Origin: Acidobacteriaceae bacterium
GTDB lineage: Bacteria; Acidobacteriota; Terriglobia; Terriglobales; Acidobacteriaceae
Direction: 5' to 3'
Length of the DNA stretch: 64,000 nt
Assembly (NCBI GenBank): GCA_030041515.1
Contig: JASHNS010000119.1
Coordinates: 1 to 64,000 of the forward strand
Positions 44,835 to 64,000 of the stretch are shown in pieces (the first letter of the stretch is position 1; every line of letters starts with the position of its first letter). Below the pieces are notes generated by a model. The model was not told the DNA's origin and searched no databases. It saw nothing but the letters and a program-made list of their open reading frames with translations. The position numbers were made by a program, and so were the translations under genes.

Positions 44835-44858
44835 CCGCGGGAGTTCTCCGCGCAGATC

Positions 44859-47800
44859 TCAGTGTGCCGGCACCAGCGTGACCGCGAGGACGAGCACATC
44901 CCGATTTCCGGGAAGGGTGAGGCTGCGCACGTCCTTCGCACCGTTGAGGGCGAAGGAATAAGCAAAGATGTTAAACGGATTGCCATCCTTCGAGCCGTCC
45001 GCGACGAGCCGATACGGAGTCTGCACTGCAACGGATTCGCCGGGGAGGTCGCCCCCGCCCGACCAATCGCTCAGGCTCTGGACAAACGAAGCATCCGTGC
45101 CGTCAGCGTACTGCACGGAAAACGCCTGCTGCTCCTGATCGCCATCCACGCCCAGCGCCAGCACCTTCACACTCGAAAACTTCCCTTTCGGGAGGAGGAT
45201 GGTTGCGCTGGTGACGGCATCCGGCGCGTTGGGCGGCCCCAGCCGGAACACGACATCCGCGCCCACGGGGTTGGGTTCCAAAGTCTGGCTGGAGAGAGCA
45301 TACCCTCCACCATCCAAACTCGCGGAGGGCGCAAACTTCGAGCCGTCGGTGTAAATGCCCGTCACGTTGAAAACGGAGGAGAGGTCTACCGGCACAGTAC
45401 CGCTCAAAACAGGCGTCACGCGCAGCACGGCTGAGACGCTGTGCGACCGATCGCCGGAAAGGCCGGCAATGGTAATGGGAGTCTGGACCGGACGGGCATC
45501 GCCGTCCGCAGTTAAGGTGAGTACGCTGGATGTAGCAGTCTCGGGAGGATTGAAGCGCGCCGTTACGCCGCTGGGCAGGCCCGAGACGTCCAGCCTGACA
45601 GTTCCACGGAAACTTCCCCGTGGCAGCATCAGGATTTGGGTTGTTTCCTTCCTGCCCTGCGGCACGGATATTTGTGGAGAGGCGGAGAGCGTAAAGTCCG
45701 ATGGGCCTGCATTGGGCGACGGGAGCACATCATAGAGCGGCTGCGCCGGTTCCAGGACAGGATTTTCATTCGCGACGGAAACGGCCAGGATCCGAATCCG
45801 GTCATTGTTCGGCAGTGTCAGGGTTTTCGCTCCCGGCGGCAGATCCACGCCATATCCGAAGAGGTACGAATAGGAATAGGCGACGTTTTTGCCCGACGAA
45901 TCATGGTGATGGTCGCTATACCAGGCGAGATCGGCACGCTTGATGAAGCCGGGTTTCAGTCCGATCATCTCGCCGTAGTTATCCTGTGCGGCGTCTGGCG
46001 AACTCCAGACACGGTCATCCCATTGCCCGATGAATCCGCCCCAGTTTTCGATATTCAGTTCCACCTTGTTGCTGCCTGCCGCAAATACCGCTTTTTGATC
46101 GCCATCATCCGATGCCGCCAGAAGATAGAGGCGGTTGTAGCTGCCCTCTGGCAGCCGGAGAGTCTGTCCCGTAGCAGCGATTGCGTTTGGTGTGCCGGTT
46201 TTGGCAGGGGCGAGGTGGAAGGTAACGCCGTGATAAGCGATCTGCGCGGGCAGCATCTCGGCCGGGAAAGCGTCGCCCTTGCCGTCAAAGCCGGATGTCG
46301 AGGCATCGCCGTTGTTCGTCGCTGTCGCCAGATCGTATGAAAGCTGCACCGGCGTTGAACGCACGGCCGCAAGACGTGTGGGTGCGGGATCGAGCTTCAG
46401 TGCAAACGTACGGGGCTGATAAGCGCCAAACGAGGTTACCAGCGCGCCATCCGTTACGGTGGCCGGCCCAACCGGCTGCTCCTGACCGTTGACTTCGCGG
46501 GCCGCAGCTATCGGAACGGCAAAGGAGATTCGCACGTTGGGTTGCGGTTTGCCGTCCATCTCAACAAGCCGCACGATGACTTCGTCACTCGCCTCAGCTT
46601 TCTTCAGCGCCATGATACGAATGCGGGGATCACTGACGTGCACGAGGGAGAAACTCCGGCCGAGCGCGCCGGGATGCTTTGGCGACTCGAAAGCAATGAG
46701 AGGCGCGTTGAGCTCCTCGCCCTGCCAGTCTGTCTGCGCAGAGCGCCAGTCACCCGCGTGGGCGACAAAGCCGTAGATGAATTCGTGGTGACCGATATCC
46801 TGTGTGCCCTGATCCGGATAGCCGCCCGCGGTTCCGGGAGTGCGGATCAAGGTGAGACGGATGGTGTGATCATTGGGCTTGTCCGAGCCGTTCTTGCAGT
46901 CGGTGAGGATGGTGGCGCCGAATTTCCCGCTCATGTCGGTGAGATCGATCCACTGGTGAGTTGCTACTTCAAATTTTTTCGGCTGCGCGGTTTTGCGCTC
47001 GATGGTGCCGATGTCCAGGTTATAGGTGGCCAGTTCATTCGAGGCGGTGAGCGGGAAGGTCGCCTTCAGGTTCGATTCGCGCGTGTCCCAGTCGATGACA
47101 TTGCCGAACTCAATGCGCTTGCCCGCATCACCGGCCGCAAGGCGAATGGTCTGCACGAATCGGGATCCTGCCGTTTCGCGTGAGACCTCGACGGCAACGC
47201 GCACGGGACCATTCTCGACCACGCGAATCTTCACCGGGCCGCTGACGTACTCCCGGGGCCTGGCCTGCTCCTGGTCCCAGTCCATATTCCATGCTGGCCA
47301 CTGCTTTGGATTGTCATAGGAAATGGCGAGACGCGCAGGCGCGGACAGGAGTTCGCGGTTGAGCTTCCTGTCGAAGATGCTGGAGACGTCGCCGTTAGCA
47401 TCGATCGTCACCCGGTAATACTCGTTTTCCATCTGGTGGGCGCTCACGCGGAGCACGGAGGAGGATTGGATGACTCCGGGTTGAACGTGATAAACCGCAT
47501 AGCCAACGGACGGAACAGTGGCTTCGAACAAGACCTTGTCATTGTCGATCTGGGCGGGTTGCTGGCGGCCATCGGGTCCTACCACGTGAACGGCCCGGGG
47601 AAGGCCGCCGGGGAAGTCCACTTTCGCCTCGACGATGTCGTGGCGCGCGATGTTGAGCGGATTGAAGACGACCAGCGCTATGCCCTGACCCTGGGTGTTC
47701 AAACCAGCTGAAACACCTTCTACCGCGCTCTTTAGCACGCCGGCAAACTGATTCATGGCGATCACATCGTCATTCCAGGCGAACTCATAGGCGCGGGGAG

Positions 47801-49241
47801 TCGCCGTTCCCGCGGCGAGGTCATGGAAATGCGCGGCCATGGCGAGCGTCCAGGCGTCGTTGAGCCGTTCCATCGGGTAGGGACGCGCGTCGAGCCAGGC
47901 AGCGGCGACCGAGGATTTCTCGGCCGCGTCCGCCAGCAGTTCTTCTTTGCGGATCCACCGTTTCTGGTAAGCCTCTGACGTGAGAGAGCCGGCCGAGTGG
48001 TTCGTCAGCTCAAGCTCACCCGTATAGCGAGGCAGCATCTCCGCTTCCTGTGGAGTGATGTCGCGAAACATCTGATCGGCGGTCGCAGAAATGACATGCA
48101 CCGGACCCTGCCCGACGCGGACTTCAGGGAAGGATTGGTGGCGCCCGCCCATAAAATACATGCCGTTCTGCGGAGGAAGTCCCACGGTTCCTCCGGTCAC
48201 GATCGCTTCGAGCCGCCTGACGGATTCTTCATCGGGAGCGCCGCCGATGTCTCCCGTCCCGTAATAGTGGTAGTCGGTGTAGACGCCGGTGATCTTGCCG
48301 TTTCGGAGCACACGGGCCGCCCAGTCGCCCTGATATCTCTGATTCTCGTATTCCGCCTGTGCATCGTTGAGGGCATTCAGCTCGCGGCGCAGCGTGAAGT
48401 ACTGGCTGAGGTCGTTCTGGTCGTAGGAGTGGTGATCGTGGCTTGATTTCTGCAGCCGCTGCTGGATTTCGGCGATTTGCTGTTCAACTTTGGCGATGGC
48501 GGGGTTCGCCGGCAACGGAGGAAGCGGGCGACTGAGGTCTGTATAGATGCCGCCGCTGTAGCTACCGGGATTCAGGCCAGCCAACACGCTCTCACCGTCA
48601 GGTCCAACCCAGACGCCGACATTGAAGGGCGTCCCTTCCGGGGTGTCCTCTCTCGAGTCGGGACCGCCGACATTGGCCGAAGAGCCCCAGGTGAGCTTTT
48701 GCGTGGAGAACCCTTTGACGCCGGCGTGAGCCAGGATGGTCGGCAGGGATGCCGGAAAGCCGAAGCAATCGGGCAGCATGAACTCCTCGCTGGACTTGCC
48801 GAATTCGCGATGGAACCATTCATTGCCATACAGAACCTGCCGGATGATCCCCTCCGCGCTCGGCGCGTTCACGTCGCCTTCTTCCATTGAGGAGCCGGCC
48901 GGGAACCAGCGCCCCTCGGCGACGTACTGTTTTACCTTTGCAAAATCAGAGGGAAAGTATTCCTGCATCAACCGATAGCGGTTGGCGCCGGTGAAGTTGA
49001 AGATGTAGTGCGGATATTTGGGGAACAGGGCAAAGTTATCCTCCATCGTGTGGCGGAGGTAGTCGTCAATCACCTGCGGATATTCCCATCGCCATTCCGT
49101 ATCGAGGTGGGCGTAGCCAACGACGTAGAGGGTTGGCTGCTTTTGGAGATCGGGGCTATTCGGGTTCTGCGACCCGGCGAAAGGGCAAAATGCAAGAAAC
49201 GCCAGCAGAGCCGGCGTCGACCACGTGCCATGTTTTCTCAT
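44859..49241 (-). CDS. Secreted GH38 alpha-mannosidase with beta-rich C-terminal domains
   Basis: 1460 residues from ATG 49241, which gives a signal peptide (LLAFLAFCPFAGS). The GH38 catalytic domain starts with the zinc motif GYAHLDTEW (His45, Asp47) and contains the nucleophile/zinc ligand Asp158 in MLPDCFGFPASLP. The middle and C-terminal mannosidase domains follow to about residue 1020. The last 400 or so residues add beta-rich modules, including an Ig/NEW3-like repeat (GTVRLDVSGLPSGVTARFNPP). The enzyme should trim alpha-mannose from glycans outside the cytoplasm. It lies downstream of an Oar-like TonB receptor on the same strand, behind a perfect hairpin, and probably belongs to the LacI-controlled locus. 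Confidence 0.94.
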   Translation of the reverse strand: MRKHGTWSTPALLAFLAFCPFAGSQNPNSPDLQKQPTLYVVGYAHLDTEWRWEYPQVIDDYLRHTMEDNFALFPKYPHYIFNFTGANRYRLMQEYFPSDFAKVKQYVAEGRWFPAGSSMEEGDVNAPSAEGIIRQVLYGNEWFHREFGKSSEEFMLPDCFGFPASLPTILAHAGVKGFSTQKLTWGSSANVGGPDSREDTPEGTPFNVGVWVGPDGESVLAGLNPGSYSGGIYTDLSRPLPPLPANPAIAKVEQQIAEIQQRLQKSSHDHHSYDQNDLSQYFTLRRELNALNDAQAEYENQRYQGDWAARVLRNGKITGVYTDYHYYGTGDIGGAPDEESVRRLEAIVTGGTVGLPPQNGMYFMGGRHQSFPEVRVGQGPVHVISATADQMFRDITPQEAEMLPRYTGELELTNHSAGSLTSEAYQKRWIRKEELLADAAEKSSVAAAWLDARPYPMERLNDAWTLAMAAHFHDLAAGTATPRAYEFAWNDDVIAMNQFAGVLKSAVEGVSAGLNTQGQGIALVVFNPLNIARHDIVEAKVDFPGGLPRAVHVVGPDGRQQPAQIDNDKVLFEATVPSVGYAVYHVQPGVIQSSSVLRVSAHQMENEYYRVTIDANGDVSSIFDRKLNRELLSAPARLAISYDNPKQWPAWNMDWDQEQARPREYVSGPVKIRVVENGPVRVAVEVSRETAGSRFVQTIRLAAGDAGKRIEFGNVIDWDTRESNLKATFPLTASNELATYNLDIGTIERKTAQPKKFEVATHQWIDLTDMSGKFGATILTDCKNGSDKPNDHTIRLTLIRTPGTAGGYPDQGTQDIGHHEFIYGFVAHAGDWRSAQTDWQGEELNAPLIAFESPKHPGALGRSFSLVHVSDPRIRIMALKKAEASDEVIVRLVEMDGKPQPNVRISFAVPIAAAREVNGQEQPVGPATVTDGALVTSFGAYQPRTFALKLDPAPTRLAAVRSTPVQLSYDLATATNNGDASTSGFDGKGDAFPAEMLPAQIAYHGVTFHLAPAKTGTPNAIAATGQTLRLPEGSYNRLYLLAASDDGDQKAVFAAGSNKVELNIENWGGFIGQWDDRVWSSPDAAQDNYGEMIGLKPGFIKRADLAWYSDHHHDSSGKNVAYSYSYLFGYGVDLPPGAKTLTLPNNDRIRILAVSVANENPVLEPAQPLYDVLPSPNAGPSDFTLSASPQISVPQGRKETTQILMLPRGSFRGTVRLDVSGLPSGVTARFNPPETATSSVLTLTADGDARPVQTPITIAGLSGDRSHSVSAVLRVTPVLSGTVPVDLSSVFNVTGIYTDGSKFAPSASLDGGGYALSSQTLEPNPVGADVVFRLGPPNAPDAVTSATILLPKGKFSSVKVLALGVDGDQEQQAFSVQYADGTDASFVQSLSDWSGGGDLPGESVAVQTPYRLVADGSKDGNPFNIFAYSFALNGAKDVRSLTLPGNRDVLVLAVTLVPAH

Positions 49242-49334
49242 GCTCTCTCTCGGGGGATGCCGGTGCCGACACCCAGGTGAAGTCAGAAACGGCCGCATGC
49301 AGGATCCCGTGCGGCGCAGGACTTAGACAGTAAC

Positions 49335-49367
49335 GCAAAGGCTCCGCGCTGGTCGCGGAGCCTTTGC
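49335..49367 (-). promoter_or_regulatory. Perfect 14-bp hairpin between TonB receptor and alpha-mannosidase genes
   Basis: GCAAAGGCTCCGCG (49335-49348), a five-base loop and its exact complement (49354-49367). It has no U tract on either strand, so it is either an imperfect intrinsic terminator or an RNA processing/stability element that sets different levels for receptor and enzyme. Confidence 0.7.
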
Positions 49368-49384
49368 CACAGGCGCGTTCTTCG

Positions 49385-52300
49385 TTAGAAGGTGAATTTC
49401 CCGGAAATCTTCAGGATTCTCGGGAAGTTCTGCTGCGTTGGGCCGATGGTACCGAAGCCGCTCCAGCCGGCTCCTGGGGTGAATACGGGCGGTCCGTCTC
49501 CTGGATTCGAGTCCGGGCCGCCGAATTGTACAGAGTTGAAGGAGTTGAAGGCATCCAGCCGAAGCGTGAAATTCATACCCTCATGGACAGGCGTTGCCTT
49601 CATCAGGGACAGGTCAAAATCCGGAACCGTGGGTTGGCGTACGGCGCTTGTTTGCGGTTGGGTCGTCTGCAGCCCCCAGGTGAATCCGTCCACATTCGGA
49701 ATCCTGCTCCAGCAATTGCTGATCGTAGTGGCATCATTTTTGAGCCATTCGCCGGAGCTGGTGCCGTGCGCCGGGCGCAATTGGCTCATGGGACAGCTAT
49801 CGTTCCAGCCATTATTCAGTCCAACGGGCCATCCAGTTTGCGCCGCGATCACCGAACTGAGGGTCCAGCCGCTGACCAACAATCGAACGGGCGCCGGGGA
49901 ATTCGCGAAGTACCGTTCGCCCTTACCGAAGGGCAGATCCCAGACCGGAGTAATGGAGAGGATCTGGTCGCGATCGATGCTGGAAATCACATGGTCCAGG
50001 CCGGTGCTGATGCCGCCGGGAACAGGAGCGGCCGAGCCCTGGAAGGGCCATCCGAATCCATAGCTCTCGGCGTTGATGGTCTTGGACCAGGTGTAGGCAG
50101 CCTGGAAGAACAGGCCATGACCCACATTACGGTTGGCCTTGACCTCCAAACCGTTGTACCAGTTCTTGCCAATGGGCTTGTTGTATTGTCCGACGAGGGC
50201 CGCCTCGCCTCCAGCACAATATTGGCTCAGGGGCTCCATCAGATCCAGTTTCCATACGGTGGAGTAGGCTCCGCATCCGCTGCCGCCCTGATAGGCGTCG
50301 GATGCACCATAGTAGGGATTCGGCTCTGCCTGAGTGAATACACTGGGGTTGGCGATGGCGGCCTTCCAGTCCGCCAGGCTTGTATTGGCGGCTGTCAACC
50401 AGACAAAGGTGCGGTTGTCGTAGGAATAGTTCCCCGCATAACGAGCGTCAATGACAATCCTGCTCGGCAACTCGCGCTGGAAGCCAAAGGAGAAAACCTG
50501 TTCCCAGGGGATTTTGCGCTGAGGAAAGTCGAAGGCAAGAAAATTGTTTCCCACATTCGTCAGAATCCCCTGCGAACTTCCCGGCGGAACAATCAGAGAG
50601 ACGCCGTTATAGGGAGCTCCGGACTGGAAGAGGGTGGTCGGGGTGATGCCGCCATCCGTGGAGGACGTGTAAGGCGTCGTCTCAGCGAAACCGCCATTGC
50701 TGCCGCCTTCGAGCCCGAACTGATAGATGATGCCCCATCCACCGCGGAGCACGGTCTTGTGGTTCAGGGCGTATGCCGCTCCGATGCGCGGTCCCACGTT
50801 GTTCCACTGGGTGTAATAGGCGTCGCGGGGATTGCCATCAACGCCGGGAAATTCCTGGCCGCCGAGCACCTGACTGGGAGGAGTGAGGCCCGCCGCCGAC
50901 CATGCGCTGAAGTTTGTCTGGCTGCTGATTGGATTCACGCAGGTCATGCACATGCCGGCATCCAGCGCATTGTGCCGGTCGATCAGGCCGCGCTGCAGAT
51001 CGTAGCGGATGCCGACGTTGACGGTGAGGCGTTGGGTGGCGCGCCAGTTGTCCTGGATGTAGACGCCATAGACCGGCTCCCCTTCGGAGTTGGTGCCATT
51101 CCAGTCGATGCCGCCGGGACCCCCATTTGGATTGGAACCGGGGTATCCAAGGTAGAAGTCTGCCAGGGAGGATCCGTTGCCCTCACTGCTGTTGCAGCCA
51201 TTCCCGGTCGATCCCGGAACGTTGCCATAGCAGCCGCTGTTGGTCGGGTTGTATTGGGTGAAGGACTGCCCGAAATAGAAATCGCCATTGGGGTGTCCGA
51301 AAAGCGACCAGTCGCCGTACCGATAATCGGCGATATCGCCGCCGAAGTGGAGGCTGTGTGGTCCCAGAAGCTTAGTGATATCGAGATCCCACTCAACATT
51401 GGTCGTGGCATCCGATCCGACGCCGTTGCCGAAGATCGTACTGTTGCCGCTCGAGCTTTGGCCGAGGATGCCGCCGGTGTAACTGTCGGCGACATTGAAT
51501 TCCGGGACATCCTGGAGAGCAGTGATCGGCGGCAGCGGCATGGTGAGGCCGATCGTCGAGGGAGCCTGCGCGGCCGCCAGGTTTCCATCCGGCGCAATAT
51601 CGACAAATCGGGAAAAGGAGACTTTGGTGTCGAGCAGGAAGGTGGGTGAAAACGTGTGGGTAAAATCCTGCCCCGCCGCCCAGTTTTCGCGGATCTGGCC
51701 GAGATTGCCGTTGGAGGCAAGCCCGCTCAGGCCATTGGTGATGCGGTTTTCCTCGCCGGTCTGCCACTCGTAATAGCTATACGTTTTGGTGTTGTCGCTG
51801 AGGTTGTAATCCACGCGGATACTGGGCTGGTAGTAGTGATAGAGGTCCGGCGTCGGCATATAGAAGTTGTCGCCCGCCGCGAAATTGGTAGCGCCGGGAA
51901 TATTGGGCAACGGAATGTATTTCAGGATCGCCGTCGCGGTGGGATTGATATCGCTTGGGGGAATGGTGTCGTTGGGAAAGGGCGTTTGATAGAGGTCGTT
52001 GTTGCTGCTGCAATTGTCCGTCGTTCCTTCGCTGACGGGGCATGTCGCCGTGCCAGGCTCGTAGATCGGAATACCGGCGGGCTCGCCCGAGGCCGGACCG
52101 AAGTGCGTGGGATCCATCACGGAGGCGAGGCCAAAATCCACACCCGCGTTGCCGTTGTATCCCGGCCGCAGATACGCCGGCGGAACGTTCGTCGAGACTC
52201 CGTGCATGATCGACTCGTTGTACCCTTCGAATCCGAAGAAGAAGAAGAGCTTCTTCTTCACGATGGGTCCGCCGATGGTCCCGTCATACTGGTTTTCCAC

Positions 52301-53203
52301 GTATCCCTGCCGGGGAAGGCCGTAGAGATTTTGCTGGAAGGTATTGGCATCCATGAAGGTGCCGGAGTAAATCTCATACAGGTCGCCGTGGAATTGGTTG
52401 GTGCCGCCTTTGGTGACGATGTTGATGGTGCCGCCCGCGGTCCTGCTGAACTGGGCGTCGTAGTTGGTCGTCATCACGTTGACTTCACTGACCGTGTCAA
52501 GGTTGGGCGCGACGTTCCACGCGCCGGCGGATTGATTCTGGAATCCCGTTTGCTGCGTGATGTTCACGCCGTTCAGGGTGAACTGATTCAGAGAACCGCT
52601 GGCGTCTCCGGCAACCGCGCCGCCGCCAATCGTATATTCATTCGTTTCATCCCAGCCGCGAGTTCCGGAGAATCCGCTGGCGCCGAAACTTTGCTGATAG
52701 AACTGGCTTCCGGGCGTGGTCCCAATCAGCATGTAGACCTGTTGCCCGTTGAGCGGAACGGCCTGGAGTTCGTGCGACAGAATGAGATTATTGCCCACGG
52801 CATCGGTGGTCTCCAGTTCGGGGGGGGCGGCGGTAACGGTGACCTGCTCGCTTGCCTGCCCCACGGGCAGCTGGAAGTTTTTGCCGGTGCCCTGCGCCGC
52901 ATAGAGGTGCAGATTCTCCTGGACCACGGTTTTAAATCCTTTCGCCGTGGCGGTGACGGTATAAACGCCGGGCAGCACATAGGGAATGTAATAGGTGCCG
53001 TCGCCGGTGGTATGAGCGGTGTAGGTGGTTCCGGTGCCGTTCTCGACGGCGGTGACAGTGGCATTGACAATCACGGCGCCCGTAGGGTCGGTGACGCGTC
53101 CCGAAAGAGTGGCCCGGAACTCCTGTGCCATCGCGCTACAGGCTGCGAAAATGCCGGCCAACAAGCAAACACCGACAAACTTCCGACTCCAACCCAACGT
53201 CAT
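49385..53203 (-). CDS. Oar-like TonB-dependent receptor of the mannoside locus (4)
   Basis: 1272 residues from ATG 53203, preceded by a strong GAGGAGG site. A signal peptide ends near CSAMA-Q. The carboxypeptidase-regulatory-like domain covers about residues 30-115 (LSGRVTDPTGAVIVNATVTAV). The plug region (FTLNGVNITQQTG, GGTINIVTKGGTNQFHGDLYEIY) precedes the barrel, which ends in a terminal Phe (KISGKFTF). A consensus-like promoter (53365-53393) and a LacI-type operator (53337-53354) precede it, with a leader of about 155 bases. It lies upstream of the GH38 gene and probably imports mannose-containing oligosaccharides; that substrate is an inference from context. Confidence 0.95.
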   Translation of the reverse strand: MTLGWSRKFVGVCLLAGIFAACSAMAQEFRATLSGRVTDPTGAVIVNATVTAVENGTGTTYTAHTTGDGTYYIPYVLPGVYTVTATAKGFKTVVQENLHLYAAQGTGKNFQLPVGQASEQVTVTAAPPELETTDAVGNNLILSHELQAVPLNGQQVYMLIGTTPGSQFYQQSFGASGFSGTRGWDETNEYTIGGGAVAGDASGSLNQFTLNGVNITQQTGFQNQSAGAWNVAPNLDTVSEVNVMTTNYDAQFSRTAGGTINIVTKGGTNQFHGDLYEIYSGTFMDANTFQQNLYGLPRQGYVENQYDGTIGGPIVKKKLFFFFGFEGYNESIMHGVSTNVPPAYLRPGYNGNAGVDFGLASVMDPTHFGPASGEPAGIPIYEPGTATCPVSEGTTDNCSSNNDLYQTPFPNDTIPPSDINPTATAILKYIPLPNIPGATNFAAGDNFYMPTPDLYHYYQPSIRVDYNLSDNTKTYSYYEWQTGEENRITNGLSGLASNGNLGQIRENWAAGQDFTHTFSPTFLLDTKVSFSRFVDIAPDGNLAAAQAPSTIGLTMPLPPITALQDVPEFNVADSYTGGILGQSSSGNSTIFGNGVGSDATTNVEWDLDITKLLGPHSLHFGGDIADYRYGDWSLFGHPNGDFYFGQSFTQYNPTNSGCYGNVPGSTGNGCNSSEGNGSSLADFYLGYPGSNPNGGPGGIDWNGTNSEGEPVYGVYIQDNWRATQRLTVNVGIRYDLQRGLIDRHNALDAGMCMTCVNPISSQTNFSAWSAAGLTPPSQVLGGQEFPGVDGNPRDAYYTQWNNVGPRIGAAYALNHKTVLRGGWGIIYQFGLEGGSNGGFAETTPYTSSTDGGITPTTLFQSGAPYNGVSLIVPPGSSQGILTNVGNNFLAFDFPQRKIPWEQVFSFGFQRELPSRIVIDARYAGNYSYDNRTFVWLTAANTSLADWKAAIANPSVFTQAEPNPYYGASDAYQGGSGCGAYSTVWKLDLMEPLSQYCAGGEAALVGQYNKPIGKNWYNGLEVKANRNVGHGLFFQAAYTWSKTINAESYGFGWPFQGSAAPVPGGISTGLDHVISSIDRDQILSITPVWDLPFGKGERYFANSPAPVRLLVSGWTLSSVIAAQTGWPVGLNNGWNDSCPMSQLRPAHGTSSGEWLKNDATTISNCWSRIPNVDGFTWGLQTTQPQTSAVRQPTVPDFDLSLMKATPVHEGMNFTLRLDAFNSFNSVQFGGPDSNPGDGPPVFTPGAGWSGFGTIGPTQQNFPRILKISGKFTF

Positions 53204-53336
53204 AATTGCCTCCTCAAGATGGTTCTCGTTTCTTCAGCAGACTCTGGAGAAAGTCCCCGGGGCCCTGCAATCCTCAACTCATGTTCGTTCGATCCATCGA
53301 CAGGTGCGATCTTCGATGAAGGAGTTTGAAGCTGCT

Positions 53337-53354
53337 CGTGGTAACGATTCCACG
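53337..53354. promoter_or_regulatory. LacI-family operator at the TonB receptor promoter
   Basis: CGTGGTAACGATTCCACG is an 18-bp near-palindrome with the central CG typical of LacI/GalR operators and arms CGTGG/CCACG. It starts about ten bases downstream of the -10 element (53370-53365, minus strand), so a bound repressor would block transcription. Its core matches the second operator at 54633 in 12 of 14 bases. Confidence 0.72.
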
Positions 53355-53364
53355 ATTTCAACGC

Positions 53365-53393
53365 AATTTAGTCCTGTCTGCGTACGTTGTCAA
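53365..53393 (-). promoter_or_regulatory. Strong promoter for the TonB receptor and alpha-mannosidase
   Basis: Read on the minus strand: a perfect TTGACA (53393-53388), exactly 17 bases and TAAATT (53370-53365; four of six). It is the best -35 element I found in the window, and it reads into the receptor gene with the operator just downstream. Confidence 0.7.
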
Positions 53394-53470
53394 GTCCGAC
53401 GCGCCGGACATCAGGAAATGGCCTGGAGCCCGTCGCAGCACGCCGGGAATCGACTGCCATCCGGTGGAGG

Positions 53471-54535
53471 CTAGTGAAGCGCTGACTGGCGAGATGCCTG
53501 ACACGCGCCCGACGGCTCGGGGCCTACTGCCGGAGGGACATGGAGAGGCAGAATGCAGGCGCCGAGAAGGCCGGCTTCCGGTCCCAAACGTGCGGGCATG
53601 ACCCGCGTGCCCCCGGGGATTGCCTGGAGAGCAGCGCCACCGGAAGTGGTCAGGCGATAGACGTAACTGCGGCGGTGGAGTTCGGCAAAGAGCGGCGCGG
53701 ACAGAAGGTCCCAGGACTGGGCTACGCCTCCGCCGACGACATAGAGGGGCAGATTCAGCATGTTAATGAGGTCGGCGAGAGCAATGCCGAGAGCGCGGCC
53801 TGCGGCGGCATAGACTCCGCGTGCATGCGGGTCCCCGGCACGGGCGGCCAGGGCGAGATTGGCCGCCGTGAGTGGGCTTGCGGGGTCGAGATGAGCGGAA
53901 GGGGACAGGCCGCCAGCGAACAGGCGCTCCGCGGCTTTGGCGATGGCCGTGCCGGACGCATACGCCTCAAGGCATCCCGCATTCCCGCACCCGCAGGGAG
54001 GGCCCTCCGGGTCGATGGTCAAGTGGCCGGATTCTGCGGCCATGCCGGAAGCGCCATGCCAAATGCGGCCATTCAGAATAATTCCGCTCCCCACACCGGT
54101 GCCAAGAGTGAGCATACAAAGAGAGTCGACCGCAAACTCTTTTCCAGAACCGAGAGCATATTCAGCGAGGGCTGCGACCCTTGCGTCTCCATCAAGGCTG
54201 ATGGGATGGGGGAGGCGGCTTTGCAATTCGTCGAGCAGCGGGAAGTTGTTCCAGCCGGGTAGATTAGGGGGGGCGTGCAGGCGTCCCGCGGGGAGCTCGA
54301 GGGGGCCTGGCGAGCCAACACCGATGCCCGCGCAGGGACGAGTTCGGCCGTGAATTTCAAGGAGGCGGCAGACATTCCTACAGATATCGTCGACGATTGC
54401 GAGGGGCCCCGCGGAGATGCGAGTGAGAAAAGCGGATGTTTCCAGCAGACCAGCTGGGGGAGAGTAAGCTGCAACTCTGACGCTGGTGGCGCCCAGGTCA
54501 ATGCCGATCGTCAACGTTTCGTGATCAGGATCCAT
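53471..54535 (-). CDS. ROK-family sugar kinase
   Basis: 354 residues. The N-terminal phosphate loop is IGIDLGATSVRVA. The ROK signature appears as ESGHLTID followed by CGCGNAGCLEAYASG, whose cysteines and upstream His bind structural zinc. The catalytic region is preceded by SLDGDARVAALAEY, with the conserved Asp-Ala-Arg variant. The protein starts directly with the kinase fold, without an HTH, so it is an enzyme and not a ROK repressor. The substrate may be mannose, fructose, glucose or an amino sugar; the neighbouring GH38 favours mannose. It is divergent from the LacI gene, and an operator lies between them. Confidence 0.92.
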   Translation of the reverse strand: MDPDHETLTIGIDLGATSVRVAAYSPPAGLLETSAFLTRISAGPLAIVDDICRNVCRLLEIHGRTRPCAGIGVGSPGPLELPAGRLHAPPNLPGWNNFPLLDELQSRLPHPISLDGDARVAALAEYALGSGKEFAVDSLCMLTLGTGVGSGIILNGRIWHGASGMAAESGHLTIDPEGPPCGCGNAGCLEAYASGTAIAKAAERLFAGGLSPSAHLDPASPLTAANLALAARAGDPHARGVYAAAGRALGIALADLINMLNLPLYVVGGGVAQSWDLLSAPLFAELHRRSYVYRLTTSGGAALQAIPGGTRVMPARLGPEAGLLGACILPLHVPPAVGPEPSGACQASRQSALH

Positions 54536-54632
54536 AGGAAGTGATGTTCAGCCCGCCACGAAAAAAGTGGGCGCGACGGCTGCCGCAAATCGCACCAGGT
54601 CGCATCAGGCGCGCCTCGCGGCCCCGATGCCA

Positions 54633-54646
54633 TGGCAACGATACCA
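54633..54646. promoter_or_regulatory. Second LacI-family operator, between ROK kinase and LacI genes
   Basis: TGGCAACGATACCA follows the form TGG-N-A-N-CG-N-T-N-CCA and matches the operator core at 53339-53352 (TGGTAACGATTCCA) in 12 of 14 positions. Its place between divergent genes suits control of the kinase and autoregulation of the repressor. Confidence 0.68.
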
Positions 54647-54749
54647 CAAAGCAGGCGGGTTGGATATTCCCCTGGAAGCGGCGTTTGTTTGCCCGCCGGG
54701 GCTGAGAATAGACTGGGGCCACCCGGAGAACTGTGCCGACCGATTGCCC

Positions 54750-55787
54750 ATGACGACTCGCAGCAAACGCCCGACCGTAAGTGAAGTAGCAAGGCTTGCA
54801 GGCGTGGGAACCACCACAGTTTCGCGTGTGATCAATGGCAGCACGCGAGTTGATCCAAACACGCTGGAGCGGGTGACGCGCGCTATCGAGAAGCTGGGCT
54901 ACATGCCGAACCAGGCAGCCCGGATTTTGCGCGGTGCGAGGACGCGCACAATTGGACTGCTGATTCCCAGCATTGCAGACCCTTTTTTTTCGAGCTGCGC
55001 CGAAGCAGCGCAGGCTATCGCGCGGGTGAACGATTCGCTGCTGACCGTAATTACCACGCAGAACGATCCGCACGTAGAGATTGAAAATCTAAATGTGCTG
55101 ATGAGACACCAGACGGACGGCCTGATCATCGCGCCGGCCAATTCGCAAAGCCCGGTGCTGCGGGATATTGTTCAGCGCCTGACCGTGCCGGTGGTAGCGA
55201 TGGATCGACCGCTGCTGAATGCGGGAATCTCTTCGGTGCTGGCGGATGGTTTTGCGGGGGCCCAGGAGGCGACGCAGCATTTAATTGAACACGGGCGCAG
55301 GCGGATTGTATGCCTGACAGGCGAAGCGACTTTGTATACCATTCGCGAGCGCATTCGCGGATACCGCAAGGCAGTGGAATCGGCGAGGTTGCCATGTATT
55401 CTCGACACCTCGATTCGGGACTATAAATCGGCGGAGTACGCGGTGCAGAGCATGATGTCAGAGGCCGAGCCGCCGGATGCATTCTTCACTCTGAAGAACA
55501 GCACCACGATTCACGCTTTCGAGGCCCTGCAGAAGCTGAAGATCGCGATTCCGGAGTCGGTAGCGCTTGTGGGCTACGACGATTTCGAGCTGGCGGCAAC
55601 GGTTCGCCCCTCCATTACCGTGGTGCAGCAGCCAGTGGACGAGATTGGGCGCATCGCCGCGGAGATCCTGTTTGAGAACCTGGCGCAGATAGGCGTTCGC
55701 CCGCATCACATGGAGCCGCAGTGCGTGCAGCTGAAGACGCGGTTAATCCGGAGGAGTTCGTGCGGCTGTTCTGTCCTCGCAGGCTGA
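54750..55787 (+). CDS. LacI/GalR-family transcriptional regulator
   Basis: 345 residues from ATG 54750. The N-terminal HTH is textbook: TVSEVARLAGVGTTTVSRVING, then the hinge helix NQAARILRG. The periplasmic-binding-protein-like effector domain follows (about 62-335; TIGLLIPSIADPFFS, VALVGYDDFELA). A sugar or sugar phosphate is the expected inducer. The upstream in-frame extension lacks family resemblance. Two operators of the LacI type, at the divergent ROK kinase and at the TonB receptor promoter, make it the probable local repressor of the mannoside locus. Confidence 0.95.
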   Translation: MTTRSKRPTVSEVARLAGVGTTTVSRVINGSTRVDPNTLERVTRAIEKLGYMPNQAARILRGARTRTIGLLIPSIADPFFSSCAEAAQAIARVNDSLLTVITTQNDPHVEIENLNVLMRHQTDGLIIAPANSQSPVLRDIVQRLTVPVVAMDRPLLNAGISSVLADGFAGAQEATQHLIEHGRRRIVCLTGEATLYTIRERIRGYRKAVESARLPCILDTSIRDYKSAEYAVQSMMSEAEPPDAFFTLKNSTTIHAFEALQKLKIAIPESVALVGYDDFELAATVRPSITVVQQPVDEIGRIAAEILFENLAQIGVRPHHMEPQCVQLKTRLIRRSSCGCSVLAG

Positions 55788-55941
55788 GCGCGGTGTGACG
55801 AAACGCGGGTGGGGTTGAAGGACATCAGGACCGCAACATCATGGAAGCCGGCCGGAGCATGAGCTGCGGCCGCCGCATGTCCGAAACGCCGCAGGAGCTG
55901 TTCTTTCGCGGGGGACTGCAATGCGCGGGCGAAGTTGGCGG

Positions 55942-57057
55942 TCAGCCTCTGAGGGGAAAGATGGCTTTCAGTTCCTCGGGCGGGACGAACTCCAGTTGAG
56001 CGTAGGTACAGTCTTTCGGCTCCTTATCGGCACGCCAGCGACGGAATTGGGCCATATGGCGGAAGCGACCGCTTTGCATGTGCTCGTAAGCGACCTCCGC
56101 GACGAGCTCCGGTCGAAGAGGCTCCCATGAGAGGTCTTTGCCATGGCTCCAACGGCTCTGCGCACCGGGTTTTCGAGAGCCGCCCTCTCCAGCCTCGTCG
56201 GCCAGTGCTCCCTGCCAGGGATGATGACGAGCTGCACGCGCACGGTACGGCTTGAGGAAGTCCACGAGCTCGTAACGCTTCCTGAGTGGAAAGCTTCCAC
56301 AGACTCCGACATGCTGCAGGACTCCTGAATCGTCATACAGTCCCAGCAGGAGAGAACCGACCGCCGGGCGATCGCTCTTCCGATACCAGCGGAAGCCAGC
56401 CACAACGCAGTCGCAGTCGCGTTCGTGCTTTACCTTCAGCATGGTTCTCTTGCCAGGCTGATAGGTGCTGTGTTTGGCCTTCGCCATGACTCCGTCGAAG
56501 CCGGCTCCCTCGAAGCGCTGGAACCAGTCGCGTGCCAACGCGGGGTCCTGGGTCGCGGGGGTGAGGAGGATCGGTTGCTTCGCGGCGGTGAGAATTAACT
56601 CCAGCCTGGCGCGCCGTTCGATGAATGGCTTCTGCCGCCAGTCATGAGTGCCCTGGGCGAGCAAATCAAAGAAGACGATGGAGGCGGGAGCCTGCTCGCT
56701 GAGAAGTTGTACTCGCGATGCAGCCGGATGGATGCGGAGCTGGAGGGCATCGAAGTCGAGCTCGCCGTTCGTGGCGATTACAATCTCGCCGTCGAGAACA
56801 CACTTCGGCGGCAGCTGATCCCGAAGAGGCCGAATAAGTTCGGGAAAATAGCGGTTCAGCGGCTTCTCGTCCCGGCTTTGAAGCAGGAACTCTTTGCCGT
56901 CACGGAAGACAATGGTGCGGAATCCGTCCCACTTGGGCTCATAGACCCATTCGGCGCCGGCCGGAAGCTGATCGACACGTTTGGCGAGCATGGGAGGGAT
57001 GGGCGGCTTAACAGGAAGATTCATCGAGCGTCGTCCGCCGGTCTCGCGGGTTGCCAT
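55942..57057 (-). CDS. ATP-dependent DNA ligase (LigC-type)
   Basis: 371 residues. The nucleotidyl-transferase motif I is EPKWDGFR, with the lysine that is adenylated. Motif III (LDGEIV), motif IIIa (IVFFDLLA), motif IV (GFDGVMAKAK) and motif V (MLKVKHERDCDCVVAGF) are present, followed by an OB-fold domain (about 225-350). It is a compact stand-alone ligase, comparable to mycobacterial LigC or the ligase module of LigD. No Ku or polymerase module lies nearby. It probably seals nicks in repair, while the replicative NAD-dependent LigA would be elsewhere. An alternative start is ATG 57024. Confidence 0.94.
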   Translation of the reverse strand: MATRETGGRRSMNLPVKPPIPPMLAKRVDQLPAGAEWVYEPKWDGFRTIVFRDGKEFLLQSRDEKPLNRYFPELIRPLRDQLPPKCVLDGEIVIATNGELDFDALQLRIHPAASRVQLLSEQAPASIVFFDLLAQGTHDWRQKPFIERRARLELILTAAKQPILLTPATQDPALARDWFQRFEGAGFDGVMAKAKHSTYQPGKRTMLKVKHERDCDCVVAGFRWYRKSDRPAVGSLLLGLYDDSGVLQHVGVCGSFPLRKRYELVDFLKPYRARAARHHPWQGALADEAGEGGSRKPGAQSRWSHGKDLSWEPLRPELVAEVAYEHMQSGRFRHMAQFRRWRADKEPKDCTYAQLEFVPPEELKAIFPLRG

Positions 57058-57159
57058 ACAAGCTAAGATGCGACGCGGTCAGATGAAACGAGCACGTTGA
57101 ATTCAGCAACAGGCACATCGTACTTGAGTCGGAATGCGCAGGAACACGCGAGTTGCCCA

Positions 57160-58491
57160 TTACTGAATTGCGGGCCGAACGGCCGTCGTGCGGCTGCTCT
57201 TCAGGTCCGCGTACGAATAGAAGCCCACGAGGAGATAGGCCGCAAGGGGCACGAGATAAGCGAGGGCCTGGCTGCCGGAGCGCTCCGCGATGAGGCCCAT
57301 CAGGGGCGTCAGCACGGCCCCGCCCACGATGGCCATCACCATGAGCGAGCCGCCGAGCTTGGTGTTCGGCCCCAGGCCGCGAATGCCCTGGGCAAAGATG
57401 GTCGGGAACATGAGGGACATGAAGAAGCTGGTCAACAGGAGCGCCCACACACCGACCCAACCTGGAAAGGTCACGCCGGCGAGCACCAGCAACGTATTGG
57501 CAACGCAATAGATTCCCATCAGCCGGCTGGGGTGGATGAATCGCATCAACCACGCGGAGAAGAAGCGCCCGATGAGGAAGCCTACGAGGGAGAGCGTCAG
57601 CAGAAATCCAGCTGCCTTGTCGCGGTCGGGCGTATACGACACGACATAGGGAATGAAGTAGCTCCAGGTGCCGATTTGCGCACCGACGTAGGCGAACTGC
57701 GCGAAGACCGCGAGCACGAATCCTGGATGGCGTAATAGGGCGCGGAAACTACCGCCATGTCCCTCCTGGGTTTCGGTTCGCGTCAGCGATGCAGGGAATC
57801 TGGTGAGCGCGATCAGGACGAGCATCACCAGGGTCGCGGCGGCAAGCGCGAGGTATGGGCCAACCACGCGCATCGTCTCGGTATGGAGATACGCGGCGTA
57901 GGCATGCCGCACGCGCAGCGCATCGACCTGCTGGGGGGTGAGATGGATGCCGGAAAAGATGAAGATGGTCCCGATGAGTACGCCGGTGATGGAGCCGACC
58001 GGATTGAAGGCCTGGGCGAGATTGAGCCTGCGCGCGGCGCTGCGCGGATCGCCCAACTGGGCGATGAATGAATTCGAGGCGGTCTCGAGAAACGAGAGGC
58101 CGCTCGCGATGACGAACAGCGCTCCCAGAAAAAAGGCGTAGCGGTTGGCGATGGCGGCGGGCCAGAAGAGAAATGAGCCCAGGCTGTAAAGCCCAAGCCC
58201 GATCAGAAATCCGGATTTGTAGCCGAAGCGGCGCATGATCAGCGCAGCCGGCATGGCCAGCAGAAAGTATCCGATATAAAACGCGGATTGCACGAGCCCG
58301 GCCTGGAGCCGATTCATCGCGAACGACTTCATGAACTGGCGGATGAGCACGTCGTTCAGGTTGTTGGGGATGGCCCACAGGAAGAACAGCGTTGTGATGA
58401 GAATGAACGGAACAATCGTCGCGCGGGTGACCAGGGGCGCCTGGAGATCGCTTTGGCGATCCGGGGAGGGCGCGTGATTCATCGGCTGCAT
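57160..58491 (-). CDS. fucP: L-fucose:H+ symporter-like MFS permease
   Basis: 443 residues and about twelve membrane helices. The first helix and loop, FFLWAIPNNLNDVLIRQFM, match the FucP-type signature of the fucose/glucose-galactose branch of the major facilitator superfamily. ATG 58491 is preferred because GAGGAAAG lies upstream and it avoids overlap with the dehydrogenase; ATG 58521 would overlap the upstream gene by 17 bases. The gene is co-transcribed with the Zn-dehydrogenase and stands beside an L-fucose oxidation cluster, so L-fucose or a close 6-deoxy- or L-galacto-configured sugar is the probable substrate. Confidence 0.9.
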   Translation of the reverse strand: MQPMNHAPSPDRQSDLQAPLVTRATIVPFILITTLFFLWAIPNNLNDVLIRQFMKSFAMNRLQAGLVQSAFYIGYFLLAMPAALIMRRFGYKSGFLIGLGLYSLGSFLFWPAAIANRYAFFLGALFVIASGLSFLETASNSFIAQLGDPRSAARRLNLAQAFNPVGSITGVLIGTIFIFSGIHLTPQQVDALRVRHAYAAYLHTETMRVVGPYLALAAATLVMLVLIALTRFPASLTRTETQEGHGGSFRALLRHPGFVLAVFAQFAYVGAQIGTWSYFIPYVVSYTPDRDKAAGFLLTLSLVGFLIGRFFSAWLMRFIHPSRLMGIYCVANTLLVLAGVTFPGWVGVWALLLTSFFMSLMFPTIFAQGIRGLGPNTKLGGSLMVMAIVGGAVLTPLMGLIAERSGSQALAYLVPLAAYLLVGFYSYADLKSSRTTAVRPAIQ

Positions 58492-58504
58492 TGAACCACT
58501 TTCC

Positions 58505-59530
58505 TCAAAGGGAGCGTTCATCGAGGTTGACCATGATTTTGGTGAATCGGGCAGGCTCGGAACTCCATGCCGCAAGGATCGATGGCGTCTCTTCGATCGG
58601 GACGATCGTGCTGATGGCCTCCCTCACCGGAAAGCGACCTGCCTCAAGCATGGCGATGACCTGGCGGAAATCCTCCGGCTGTGCGTTACGCGCTCCCAGT
58701 ATGTCCAGCTCCTTTTGCACAAAGAGTCGCGTTTCGCAGGACACCGGCTCTTTAGCGTAGCCAATGTACACTACGCGTCCGGTGTACGCGACTTCTTCGA
58801 CGGCTGCCTGAAAGGTCGCCGGAGTTCCGACAGCTTCGATGATTACGTCGGGGCCGAGGCCGCCGGTCAATTCTCGCAGGGGTTTGCTCAGGTTCTCGCG
58901 GCCTGAATGAATGGTGTGCATCGCGCCGGCTTTGCGGGCGATTGCCAGCTTTGCATCGTCAATATCCACAGCCACAGTCATGGCACCGCGGAACGCCGCG
59001 GCGGCGATTGCACCTAATCCCACTCCGCCGCAGCCGATCACCACAACTGTCTCGCCCACTGCCACGCGCCCGCGTCCAGCCGCGTGGCAGCCTACGGTCA
59101 ATGGCTCGACCAGGCACAACTCCTCGAGATTCAGCTTTGCGGGAAACAGTCGTTCGACGGGAACGCAGATAAATTCGGTCAGCGCACCATCGCGCTGCAC
59201 GCCGAGCGTCTGATTGAACTGGCACGCATTGTGGCGCCCACGGCGGCAGGACGCACATTTCCCGCAGTTCGTGCAGGGAGACAGGGTGACATCCATTCCC
59301 ACGCTGAGGTTCGGGTGGGCATCGGTCATCTCAACAATCGTGGCCGCGACTTCGTGTCCGGGAATTCGAGGATAAGAGACGAGGGGATTGCGTCCGCGAA
59401 AAGAATTCAGATCGCTGCCGCACAGGCCGACACGGCGCACCTTCAGAAGGGCCTCGCCCGGACCGGCTGAGGGCCGCGCGACCTGAACGATCTGAGCCCT
59501 TCCAGGCTCGGAAAGCACCAGGGCCTTCAT
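58505..59530 (-). CDS. Zinc-dependent medium-chain alcohol dehydrogenase
   Basis: 341 residues. Catalytic zinc ligands are Cys37 (GLCGSD) and His59-Glu60 (PGHE). The structural zinc lobe has four cysteines at 89, 92, 95 and 103 with regular spacing. The NAD-binding motif is VIGCGGVGLGA. The protein resembles sorbitol, threonine or galactitol dehydrogenase-type MDRs. It may oxidise fucose or another polyol, or reduce lactaldehyde; the SDR at 63010 is the better candidate for fucose itself. It is divergent from the FAH gene with an inverted repeat between them, and is followed by fucP. Confidence 0.92.
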   Translation of the reverse strand: MKALVLSEPGRAQIVQVARPSAGPGEALLKVRRVGLCGSDLNSFRGRNPLVSYPRIPGHEVAATIVEMTDAHPNLSVGMDVTLSPCTNCGKCASCRRGRHNACQFNQTLGVQRDGALTEFICVPVERLFPAKLNLEELCLVEPLTVGCHAAGRGRVAVGETVVVIGCGGVGLGAIAAAAFRGAMTVAVDIDDAKLAIARKAGAMHTIHSGRENLSKPLRELTGGLGPDVIIEAVGTPATFQAAVEEVAYTGRVVYIGYAKEPVSCETRLFVQKELDILGARNAQPEDFRQVIAMLEAGRFPVREAISTIVPIEETPSILAAWSSEPARFTKIMVNLDERSL

Positions 59531-59622
59531 ACGCCGGTCCCCGGCCGACCGTGTTCAGCGGCCCTTTGCCGGAGGACGCAGCAGCAGACATCATGAGGCA
59601 CATCGACGCAGGGAACCATGTA

Positions 59623-59638
59623 TCGTCTGATCTTACGA
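59623..59638. promoter_or_regulatory. Inverted repeat in the divergent promoter of the fucose cluster
   Basis: TCGT-N8-ACGA, between the divergent dehydrogenase/fucP and FAH-led operons. It is short, so chance is possible. It differs from the LacI operators, so a different regulator is implied, possibly the truncated gene at the window end. Confidence 0.3.
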
Positions 59639-59709
59639 CGCTCTGTTCGTTCGCTCACCTTCGTGGCCGCACGAGGGTGAGCAGCATCGGACCGCGAGAG
59701 AATGGATTC

Positions 59710-60564
59710 ATGCGCCTGGTCAATTTCCGAAGTGAGAATCGCACTGAATTTGGCGTAGAGCAGGACGGGCAGGTTCTCCCGCTCCGTTCTGCCGGCTACG
59801 CTTCCGATCTGGATTTCCTCGTTGCGGGTGAGGAGGGGCGCTTTGCCGTCCGACAGCACCTCGATCGCCGTGACGCCCAACGCGTCCCGCTCAGCGATGT
59901 TCATCTCCTCTCGCCGGTGCTGAAACCGGGAAAGATCCTCTGCATCGGTTTGAACTACCGCGACCATGCCGTTGAATCGAAGATGGAGATTCCCAGGGTG
60001 CCGACGGTATTTCTGAAATTGCCAAGCGCTGTCATCGGACCGGATGCCGACATCGTTCTGCCGCGCAACTCTGCGCAGCCGGATTACGAAGCGGAACTTG
60101 CGGCGGTGATCGGGAAGCCAGGGAAGGACATCGCAGCTGAGGATTGGGAACAGCACGTTGCCGGCTACACAATTCTGAACGACGTCAGCGCGCGCGACGT
60201 GCAGCTCGCCACGTCGCAGTGGTCGCTCGGCAAGAGCTTCGACACGTTTTGCCCGATCGGGCCGGCCATTGTCACGACGGATGAGATCCGCGATCCGCAC
60301 ACGCTCGATATCCGTCTTGCCATCGATGGCGAAGTCCTGCAGCACTCCAACACTCGGGAGCTGATTTTCAAGCTGCCGGATCTGATCTCCTACATTTCGT
60401 CGATTGTGCCGCTCGAAGCAGGCGATATCATCAGTACCGGAACGCCCGCGGGCGTAGGGCTGGGCCGGAAACCGCAGCGCTGGCTGCGCCCCGGCGAGCA
60501 GATCGAAATCACCATTGAGGGGATCGGGACCCTGCGGAATCGCACCGTCGCAGCTTCCTTCTGA
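59710..60564 (+). CDS. FAH-family hydrolase, probable 2,4-diketo-3-deoxy-L-fuconate hydrolase
   Basis: 284 residues from ATG 59710. The fumarylacetoacetate-hydrolase fold is marked by ILCIGLNYRDHAVE, PTVFLKLPSAVIGP, DYEAELAAVIGK (metal-binding acidic residues), GYTILNDVSARDVQ, SFDTFCPIGPAIV and ISTGTPAGVG. Family members cleave C-C bonds in diketo acids. In the oxidative L-fucose pathway this enzyme would split 2,4-diketo-3-deoxy-L-fuconate to pyruvate and lactate. The assignment rests on the neighbours: UxaA-type dehydratase and two SDRs on the same strand, with 16 bases to the next gene. Confidence 0.88.
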   Translation: MRLVNFRSENRTEFGVEQDGQVLPLRSAGYASDLDFLVAGEEGRFAVRQHLDRRDAQRVPLSDVHLLSPVLKPGKILCIGLNYRDHAVESKMEIPRVPTVFLKLPSAVIGPDADIVLPRNSAQPDYEAELAAVIGKPGKDIAAEDWEQHVAGYTILNDVSARDVQLATSQWSLGKSFDTFCPIGPAIVTTDEIRDPHTLDIRLAIDGEVLQHSNTRELIFKLPDLISYISSIVPLEAGDIISTGTPAGVGLGRKPQRWLRPGEQIEITIEGIGTLRNRTVAASF

Positions 60565-60580
60565 TCGTCAGGACCTGTTG

Positions 60581-62224: not shown

Positions 62225-63006
62225 CGGATCCTTTCCGCCTCGATGGCCGGACGGCGATTGTCACCGGAGCCGGCAGCGGGATCGGACGAGCCATTGCAAA
62301 GCTGTTCGCGCGGCGTGGATCCTCGGTTTGCCTGGTCGATATCCGCCGCGAGGCTGCAGAAGAAGCTGCGCGCGAAATTGCCGGGTCAGGGGACGCTGCG
62401 GCTCATCCGTTTGCCTGCGACGTGACTAACGCCGAGATGACTCGCCGCGTCTTCGACGGGATTGCCGCGTCAGGCCCGATCGATATCCTGGTGAACAGCG
62501 CGGGCATTTCACACATCGGCCGCCTTGAGACCACGACTGAAGAGGACTTCGAGCGCCTCTTCCGCGTGAACGTCAAAGGAGTCTATCTCGGCATGCAGGC
62601 CGCTATTGGTCATATGAGGCGCAAGGGGGGTGGGGTCATCCTCAACCTCTGCTCCATCGCCGCAACTTCAGGGCTCAGCGACCGCTTCGCTTACTCCATG
62701 ACCAAAGGGGCCGTGCTCTCGATGACGCTTTCGGTAGCGAAGGATTATCTTGCCGACGGCATCCGCTGCAATGCCATTTCGCCCGCACGCATTCACACCC
62801 CATTTGTCGACGCGTTCCTGCGCGACCGCTACCCTGGCCAGGAACAGGAGATGTTCACCCGCCTCTCTGAGGCGCAGCCCATTGGGCGCATGGGCTCTCC
62901 CGACGAGGTCGCGGCCCTCGCTCTTTATCTTTGTTCCGATGCGGCGGCCTTCATTACTGGAGCCGACATTCCTTTGGATGGCGGTTACGTCAATTTACGA
63001 GGCTGA
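62221..63006 (+). CDS. SDR, probable 2-keto-3-deoxy-L-fuconate 4-dehydrogenase
   Basis: 261 residues from GTG 62221 (GAGGAG six bases upstream; GTGA overlap with the dehydratase stop). Classical SDR: cofactor loop VTGAGSGIG, Asp40 after beta-2 (favouring NAD), NSAG, and the catalytic triad Ser145, Tyr158, Lys162. The pathway position, between a deoxy-ketoacid-producing dehydratase and a diketo-acid hydrolase, matches the dehydrogenase that oxidises C4 of 2-keto-3-deoxy-L-fuconate. A generic sugar-acid dehydrogenase cannot be excluded from sequence alone. Confidence 0.87.
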   Translation: MTDPFRLDGRTAIVTGAGSGIGRAIAKLFARRGSSVCLVDIRREAAEEAAREIAGSGDAAAHPFACDVTNAEMTRRVFDGIAASGPIDILVNSAGISHIGRLETTTEEDFERLFRVNVKGVYLGMQAAIGHMRRKGGGVILNLCSIAATSGLSDRFAYSMTKGAVLSMTLSVAKDYLADGIRCNAISPARIHTPFVDAFLRDRYPGQEQEMFTRLSEAQPIGRMGSPDEVAALALYLCSDAAAFITGADIPLDGGYVNLRG

Positions 63007-63009
63007 CCT

Positions 63010-63792: not shown

Positions 63793-63898
63793 AGTCCAAA
63801 CGACGCCGAATGGGACTTCGGGATCCCGCTTGTTTTTCGCCGATTCCCGGGGATAGCATAGGCAGGCGCGTGCCAGTCTCGATTTCGGCGGAGATCTT

Positions 63899-64000
63899 GT
63901 GGCCAATAAGAAAAGCGATTTAATGAGGAATTTCAGGAAGGACGAAGAGAATCCGGGAACCGGGTTGCTCAACCTGCCCGCACCAAAGATTTTTCGTATG
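63899..64000 (+). CDS. Possible start of a downstream gene (3' truncated)
   Basis: GTG 63899 has GGAG six bases upstream, and the frame stays open for 34 codons to the window end. It reads as a basic start followed by LNLPAPKIFRM. GntR-type regulators sometimes begin in this way, but with so few residues this is only a guess. If true, it could be the regulator acting at the inverted repeat at 59623. Confidence 0.4.
   Translation, partial: MANKKSDLMRNFRKDEENPGTGLLNLPAPKIFRM

Follow-up and report, generated by a model that had tools for sequence, protein, structure and literature searches.

A candidate LacI regulon for mannose-rich glycans in Acidobacteriaceae, linked by a recurrent operator motif

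In Xanthomonas campestris, the LacI/GalR-family repressor SuxR adjoins and controls genes for a TonB-dependent receptor, an enzyme and a sugar transporter, and its autoregulation was established by qRT-PCR (PMC1790865). For Shewanella, a mannoside (Man) regulon comprising ManR-I/II, omp(Man), ManP, ManK and ManI has been predicted (PMC2996990). The operators of LacI-family regulons are described as even palindromes with a central CG that mostly lie 30-140 bp upstream of the start codon; autoregulation is frequent, and mannose and mannosides are handled by five groups of regulators (PMC4052901). Alpha-mannan loci with GH76 genes are on record from Bacteroidota, for example in Salegentibacter Hel_I_6 (PMC9213526).

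Here we describe a locus of the Acidobacteriaceae in which a LacI-family gene lies close to genes for a ROK-family kinase, a TonB-dependent-receptor-like outer-membrane protein (TBDR) and a GH38 alpha-mannosidase (Table 1). The window, by which we mean the whole 64-kb stretch analysed (contig C37:1-64000 of a 4.77-Mb genome), is 87% coding according to a codon-usage gene caller written for this analysis. We consider it probable, at roughly 85%, that the LacI protein represses a regulon for the use of mannose-rich glycans. The first-pass annotation had proposed a single LacI regulon of receptor, alpha-mannosidase and kinase, and this proposal is supported by the enrichment of the operator motif and by its recurrence beside the same genes in relatives. 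The sites, their placement relative to promoter-like boxes, their recurrence, and their link to one LacI clade and to TBDR, GH38 and ROK genes come directly from computation; from there we infer binding, repression rather than activation, the ligand and the substrate of the kinase.

Table 1. Positions of genes, promoter and candidate operators in the window
Feature	Position	Strand	Basis or remark
GH38 alpha-mannosidase, up to 1479 aa	44859-49298	-	Pfam; alternative start 49241 possible
TBDR, CarboxypepD_reg + OMP_b-brl_4, 1272 aa	49385-53203	-	Pfam
Operator 1 (candidate), CGTGGTAACGATTCCACG, core 53339-53352	53337-53354	.	TBDR promoter region; counterparts in relatives
Promoter-like TTGACA-17-TAAATT of TBDR gene	53365-53393	-	12 nt upstream of operator 1
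ROK-family sugar kinase, 354 aa	53471-54535	-	Pfam; predicted from family membership
Operator 2 (candidate), TGGCAACGATACCA	54633-54646	.	ROK-lacI gap; counterpart between ROK and lacI in G130
LacI-family regulator, 345 aa, helix GVGTTTVSRVING	54750-55787	+	Pfam

The LacI protein has the domain arrangement of the LacI/GalR family, with PF00356 at 9-54 followed by PF13377/PF00532, all above cut-off; no NCBIfam equivalog scored above cut-off for it or for the ROK protein. The GH38 gene follows the TBDR gene on the same strand after 86 nt, and the solved structures nearest to its product are Ams1-type alpha-mannosidases. By Pfam, the genes flanking the TBDR gene encode the ROK and GH38 proteins, and no SusC/SusD pair was found among them. 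A GH35-type gene on the plus strand (42033-44834) faces the GH38 gene and has no site near it. Around the FucP-like gene at 57160-58575, no site was found within one mismatch.

Both 14-mers occur where they had been reported, one after the promoter and before the TBDR gene, the other between the genes for the ROK kinase and LacI. The core of operator 1, TGGTAACGATTCCA, in the ROK-TBDR gap, differs from TGGCAACGATACCA at 2 of 14 positions. The 18-bp palindrome that the first-pass annotation drew around it is present but imperfect, with 7 of 9 pairs matching. Operator 1 lies 135 nt upstream of the TBDR start, and operator 2 lies 97 nt upstream of the ROK start and 103 nt upstream of the lacI start. 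Thus, as is typical of LacI/GalR systems, even palindromic operators with a central CG are found near the regulator and its putative target genes.

Could the pair have arisen by chance? The pattern TGGNANCGNTNCCA matches twice in the window against 0.08 expected (the mean of 100 dinucleotide shuffles), and one shuffle in 100 reached two matches. With one mismatch allowed, the same two sites are found against 2.07 expected, which is no more than chance. A scan of the whole genome upheld the expected excess, with 14 loose matches against 5 for the reversed pattern; 6 of the 14 are intergenic. Because the other 8 lie inside predicted genes, a good part of these matches is probably due to chance. 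These intragenic matches are also what favours regarding the two sites of the window as a functionless chance resemblance. Against this stand the enrichment, the intergenic placement and the recurrence in relatives; we discarded a chance origin of the pair on the window enrichment and the 47-locus comparison below, and regard it as extremely improbable.

Full-length relatives of the LacI protein at 51-83% identity separate from the rest, at 47% or less, and we assembled an orthologue set of 47 loci (858 kb, window included), with gene limits in relatives taken from a simple codon-usage caller written for this analysis. Comparison of the orthologous loci bore out the motif: the loose pattern has 58 matches at 34 of 47 loci against 3 for its reverse, and the strict form TGGWAWCGWTWCCA has 45 matches at 31 of 47 loci against none, related genomes and loci being counted here without being independent samples. 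In the relatives' loci (window left out, one duplicate locus included), 56 of 57 sites are intergenic. The LacI protein of Acidobacteriaceae bacterium JOPF007 (L015; G098, listed as the same genus) is 70% identical to that of the window. The tblastn match to its gene (L015 10001-11027) is split into two overlapping segments, as a frameshift through assembly error or decay would produce.

In thirteen of the 47 orthologue loci, the fetched stretch lacks an exact site (L108, L112, L209, L213, L218, L220, L223, L226, L234 and L238-L241). Five of them (L213, L238-L241) carry a one-mismatch site before a matching gene, and L108 has two exact sites about 10 kb off, beyond the stretch fetched, in a gap from which GH38 and TBDR genes diverge. 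The LacI gene lies at a contig end in L209 and L220, and L218 is a 7.4-kb contig. In L112 and L234 the LacI helix is changed to GITTVSRVVNG. None of these circumstances applies to L223 and L226.

The sites are kept beside the same kinds of genes in relatives, as the regulon proposal implied, despite differences in gene order. We examined 55 proteins encoded beside sites (53 of the 55 site-adjoining genes of relatives and 2 of the window), of which 20 have OMP_b-brl_4 (TBDR-like), 15 are ROK proteins and 14 have the GH38 C-terminal domain. A mannoside-breakdown target, as in ManR-type regulons, is therefore present both in the window, where GH38 adjoins the TBDR gene, and in the 14 of 55 site-adjoining proteins. 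In G130, the closest relative by its LacI protein (83%), the order is ROK(-), site, lacI(+), site, TBDR(+), GH38(+); pairwise alignment of its ROK-lacI gap with that of the window left the two operators unaligned with each other. In G033 the gap from which the GH38 and TBDR genes diverge contains two sites, and G017, G039 and G035 share the order lacI, site, ROK. A PF00083 sugar transporter is the next gene after ROK in G017 and G039, the two scanned. Among 22 loose sites placed in G033, G060, G017, G039, G035 and G019 (from 20 stretches fetched around strict or near-strict sites), 3 are inside genes. Genes for GxGYxYP putative glycoside hydrolases adjoin sites in two genera (L168 9979 in G019 and L303 6142 in G067).

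The placement of the sites relative to promoters suggests how they may act. The promoter of the TBDR gene, which had been called the best of the window, is indeed the sole 10/12 match in the 60 kb scanned (1-40000 and 44001-64000). Promoter-like matches are no commoner in these 60 kb than in shuffles, so the promoter call rests on conservation in relatives: CTTGACA is invariant across an alignment of nine TBDR upstream regions. In this alignment G227, G273, G306 and G291 retain only the second operator position, and at six loci (L208, L212, L217, L222, L229, L231) two operators stand 19-21 bp apart. For operator 2, the search yielded no good -10 box. Among the oriented sites, 44 of 79 have a promoter score of at least 9. 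At 20 of these 44, mostly in front of TBDR genes and GH38 genes of the window's type, 6-13 nt separate the end of the -10 box from the operator. At another 11, which belong to ROK genes and second-type GH38 genes, the operator and a weak -35 overlap, and a -10 box follows after 17-18 nt. Offsets 31-33 hold 14 of 43 matches to -10-like boxes, and position -39 holds 9 of 77 TTGACA-like boxes.

The second placement raises the question of whether the regulator activates where its operator overlaps the -35, at the ROK and second-type GH38 genes of relatives. Arguing for this, part of the operator itself serves as the weak -35 at these 11 sites. Counter to this, the motif's invariant letters make a TTTCCA match as -35 more likely, and overlap with the -35 is also a usual position for a repressor. 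We consider activation at these genes unlikely.

Repression, the reading we prefer, could proceed as follows. LacI would bind as a dimer to sites that follow the pattern TGGNAWCGWTNCCA. On operator 1 it would occupy positions of about +7 to +20, counted from the transcription start that the -10 box implies for the TBDR-GH38 promoter, and prevent transcription; the lac repressor blocks transcription from a comparable position at lac O1. From operator 2, LacI may govern both the ROK gene and, divergent from it, lacI itself (autoregulation). The protein would be released by an inducer of the mannose type, after which the receptor would take up oligomannosides, GH38 would trim them and the ROK kinase would phosphorylate the hexose.

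Alternatively, a different LacI-family paralogue may be the main protein on these sites, in which case the lacI gene next to them would either not encode their cognate regulator or share that role with another gene. The genome has 10 LacI-domain matches, and among the 5 of 10 whose helices were read, that of C72 has a similar helix, GVSTTTVSRVLNG. Beyond this genome, we counted strict sites in 398 family genomes, our own among them and all related rather than independent samples, with a close orthologue defined by E below 1e-100. The 350 genomes without a close orthologue hold 114 strict sites (in 77 genomes) against 30 reversed, and because of this excess other regulators may use the motif; some of these genomes hold partial or 44-45% LacI relatives (e.g. 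G371, G167, G290). Set against this, 43 of the 48 genomes with a close orthologue hold 173 sites against 4 reversed. With helices read for 5 of the 10 LacI matches, the test of this alternative is partial. The loci divide in the same way: sites accompany this LacI clade at 34 of 47 loci and paralogues (LacI 37-42% identity) at 1 of 8, with one loose match in all, and a GH38 or ROK homologue is found at 32 of 47 orthologue loci versus 1 of 8. We judge another paralogue as the main binder to be very unlikely. The related idea of a motif common to several LacI paralogues is likewise weakened by the counts in genomes with and without the orthologue.

Returning to control by the neighbouring LacI protein, its targets may extend well beyond one locus. 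Up to 14 strict places occur in one genome (G071), and 20 of 21 strict sites fetched from G071 and G067 are intergenic (the LacI-locus site of G071 left out). Profiles were run on 20 of the 39 genes beside or behind strict sites in these two genomes. Those linked to mannan or uptake encode GH38, two GH92, GH47, two GH76 and three TBDR-like proteins, and further ones a kumamolisin-like protein (G067) and a GxGYxYP protein. Genes without a mannan link encode a propeller-like protein, MacB/FtsX, an isocitrate/isopropylmalate dehydrogenase, a GFO/IDH/MocA oxidoreductase, a DUF7544 protein, one protein without family and a LacI-type regulator, together with ruvB, which shares one gap with the GH47 gene, and ftsK. 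One GH92 gene (G071:C31:20946-22386) lies in three adjacent pieces, as if broken.

In our own genome, two sites stand 147 bp apart in a long gap of contig C112, at 33697 and 33844 (L131 9698-9711 and 9845-9858), upstream of a gene, with a provisional start, that encodes a kumamolisin-like protein. The first of the two sites follows the end of TTGACA-17-TTTAAT after 13 nt, a spacing close to that at operator 1, and the gene is likely a further target. Part of the kumamolisin-like protein (L131 6619-7581) and the C-terminus of the GH38 protein share 40% identity across 328 positions, and the alignment marks this part and the C-terminal 320 residues of GH38 as a shared module. At the third site of G130, a 59-bp stretch is similar to this two-site region. 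A site in C73, TGGGAACGATCCCA (L129 9507-9520), lies before a GH31 gene, between it and a divergent gene without a Pfam match. The stretches fetched around the other two of the genome's three GH38 matches (C63, C94) have no exact site, and those around its two GH92 matches (L339, L346) have no site.

What might the substrate be? The activities of the GH38, GH76, GH92 and GH47 families point to alpha-mannan or high-mannose glycans. Since GH76, GH92 and GH47 genes stand beside sites in relatives, the enzyme families make alpha-mannan or mannoprotein/high-mannose glycans the likely substrate, which narrows the 'mannoside' of the first-pass annotation to alpha-mannan-type glycans. Among chosen genomes, GH76 was found above cut-off in 17 of 24 that have the orthologue and in 3 of 21 that lack it (Fisher p = 1.5e-4). 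Six of 30 GH76 loci fetched have a site, all six among the 24 from orthologue genomes. For GH92 the figure is 2 of 30, which rules out GH92 genes as regulon members as a rule.

A real regulon could still serve a substrate other than alpha-mannan, such as a short mannoside or the products of N-glycan trimming, and the ROK protein would then work as a glucokinase. The solved structures nearest to the ROK protein carry glucokinase annotation, and mannokinase activity is a guess. Our own genome has no GH76, and the scarcity of sites at GH92 loci points the same way. On the other side are the GH76, GH92 and GH47 genes beside sites in relatives, and in G130, the closest of these, a GH76 gene lies behind ROK on the same strand. 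We give this alternative a substantial minority chance.

Taking alpha-mannan-type glycans as the substrate, the LacI clade may be the master switch of a dispersed programme for scavenging alpha-mannan and mannoprotein in Acidobacteriaceae, a wider reading that we see as evenly balanced. One operator motif would then join TBDRs, GH38, GH76, GH47, some GH92 and the kumamolisin-like protein, in two placements, just after the promoter and over the -35. If so, uptake and later steps may respond differently, and these soil bacteria would be regulated consumers of fungal cell-wall mannan. For sugar control in a common soil phylum, the analysis yields an operator, a regulator and a set of targets that experiments can address. 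A further prediction is that many Acidobacteriaceae import and consume alpha-mannan, a polymer of the fungal wall; this is relevant to how fungal remains are turned over in soil.

The alpha-mannan loci of Bacteroidota are of the SusC/SusD type and have other types of regulator, whereas here one operator motif links genes at scattered positions. Local LacI sugar regulons are already well known; the example in Acidobacteriaceae is new, and the titles and abstract openings of the open-licence literature yielded no description of a LacI regulon of this kind for Acidobacteria. Neither Acidobacteria nor TonB occurs in the main text of the account of LacI-family regulons (PMC4052901), whose ManR groups, as described, resemble the present system in operator type with central CG and in its predicted autoregulation. 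The Man regulon of Shewanella is similar in outline when compared by function, with a regulator, an outer-membrane receptor and a mannoside kinase (PMC2996990). SuxR was tested by experiment, whereas the Acidobacteriaceae regulon is predicted by computation, and SuxR serves sucrose in another phylum, without an alpha-mannosidase or ROK kinase; the two are alike in placing a LacI/GalR-family regulator beside a TonB-dependent receptor gene and an enzyme gene (PMC1790865).
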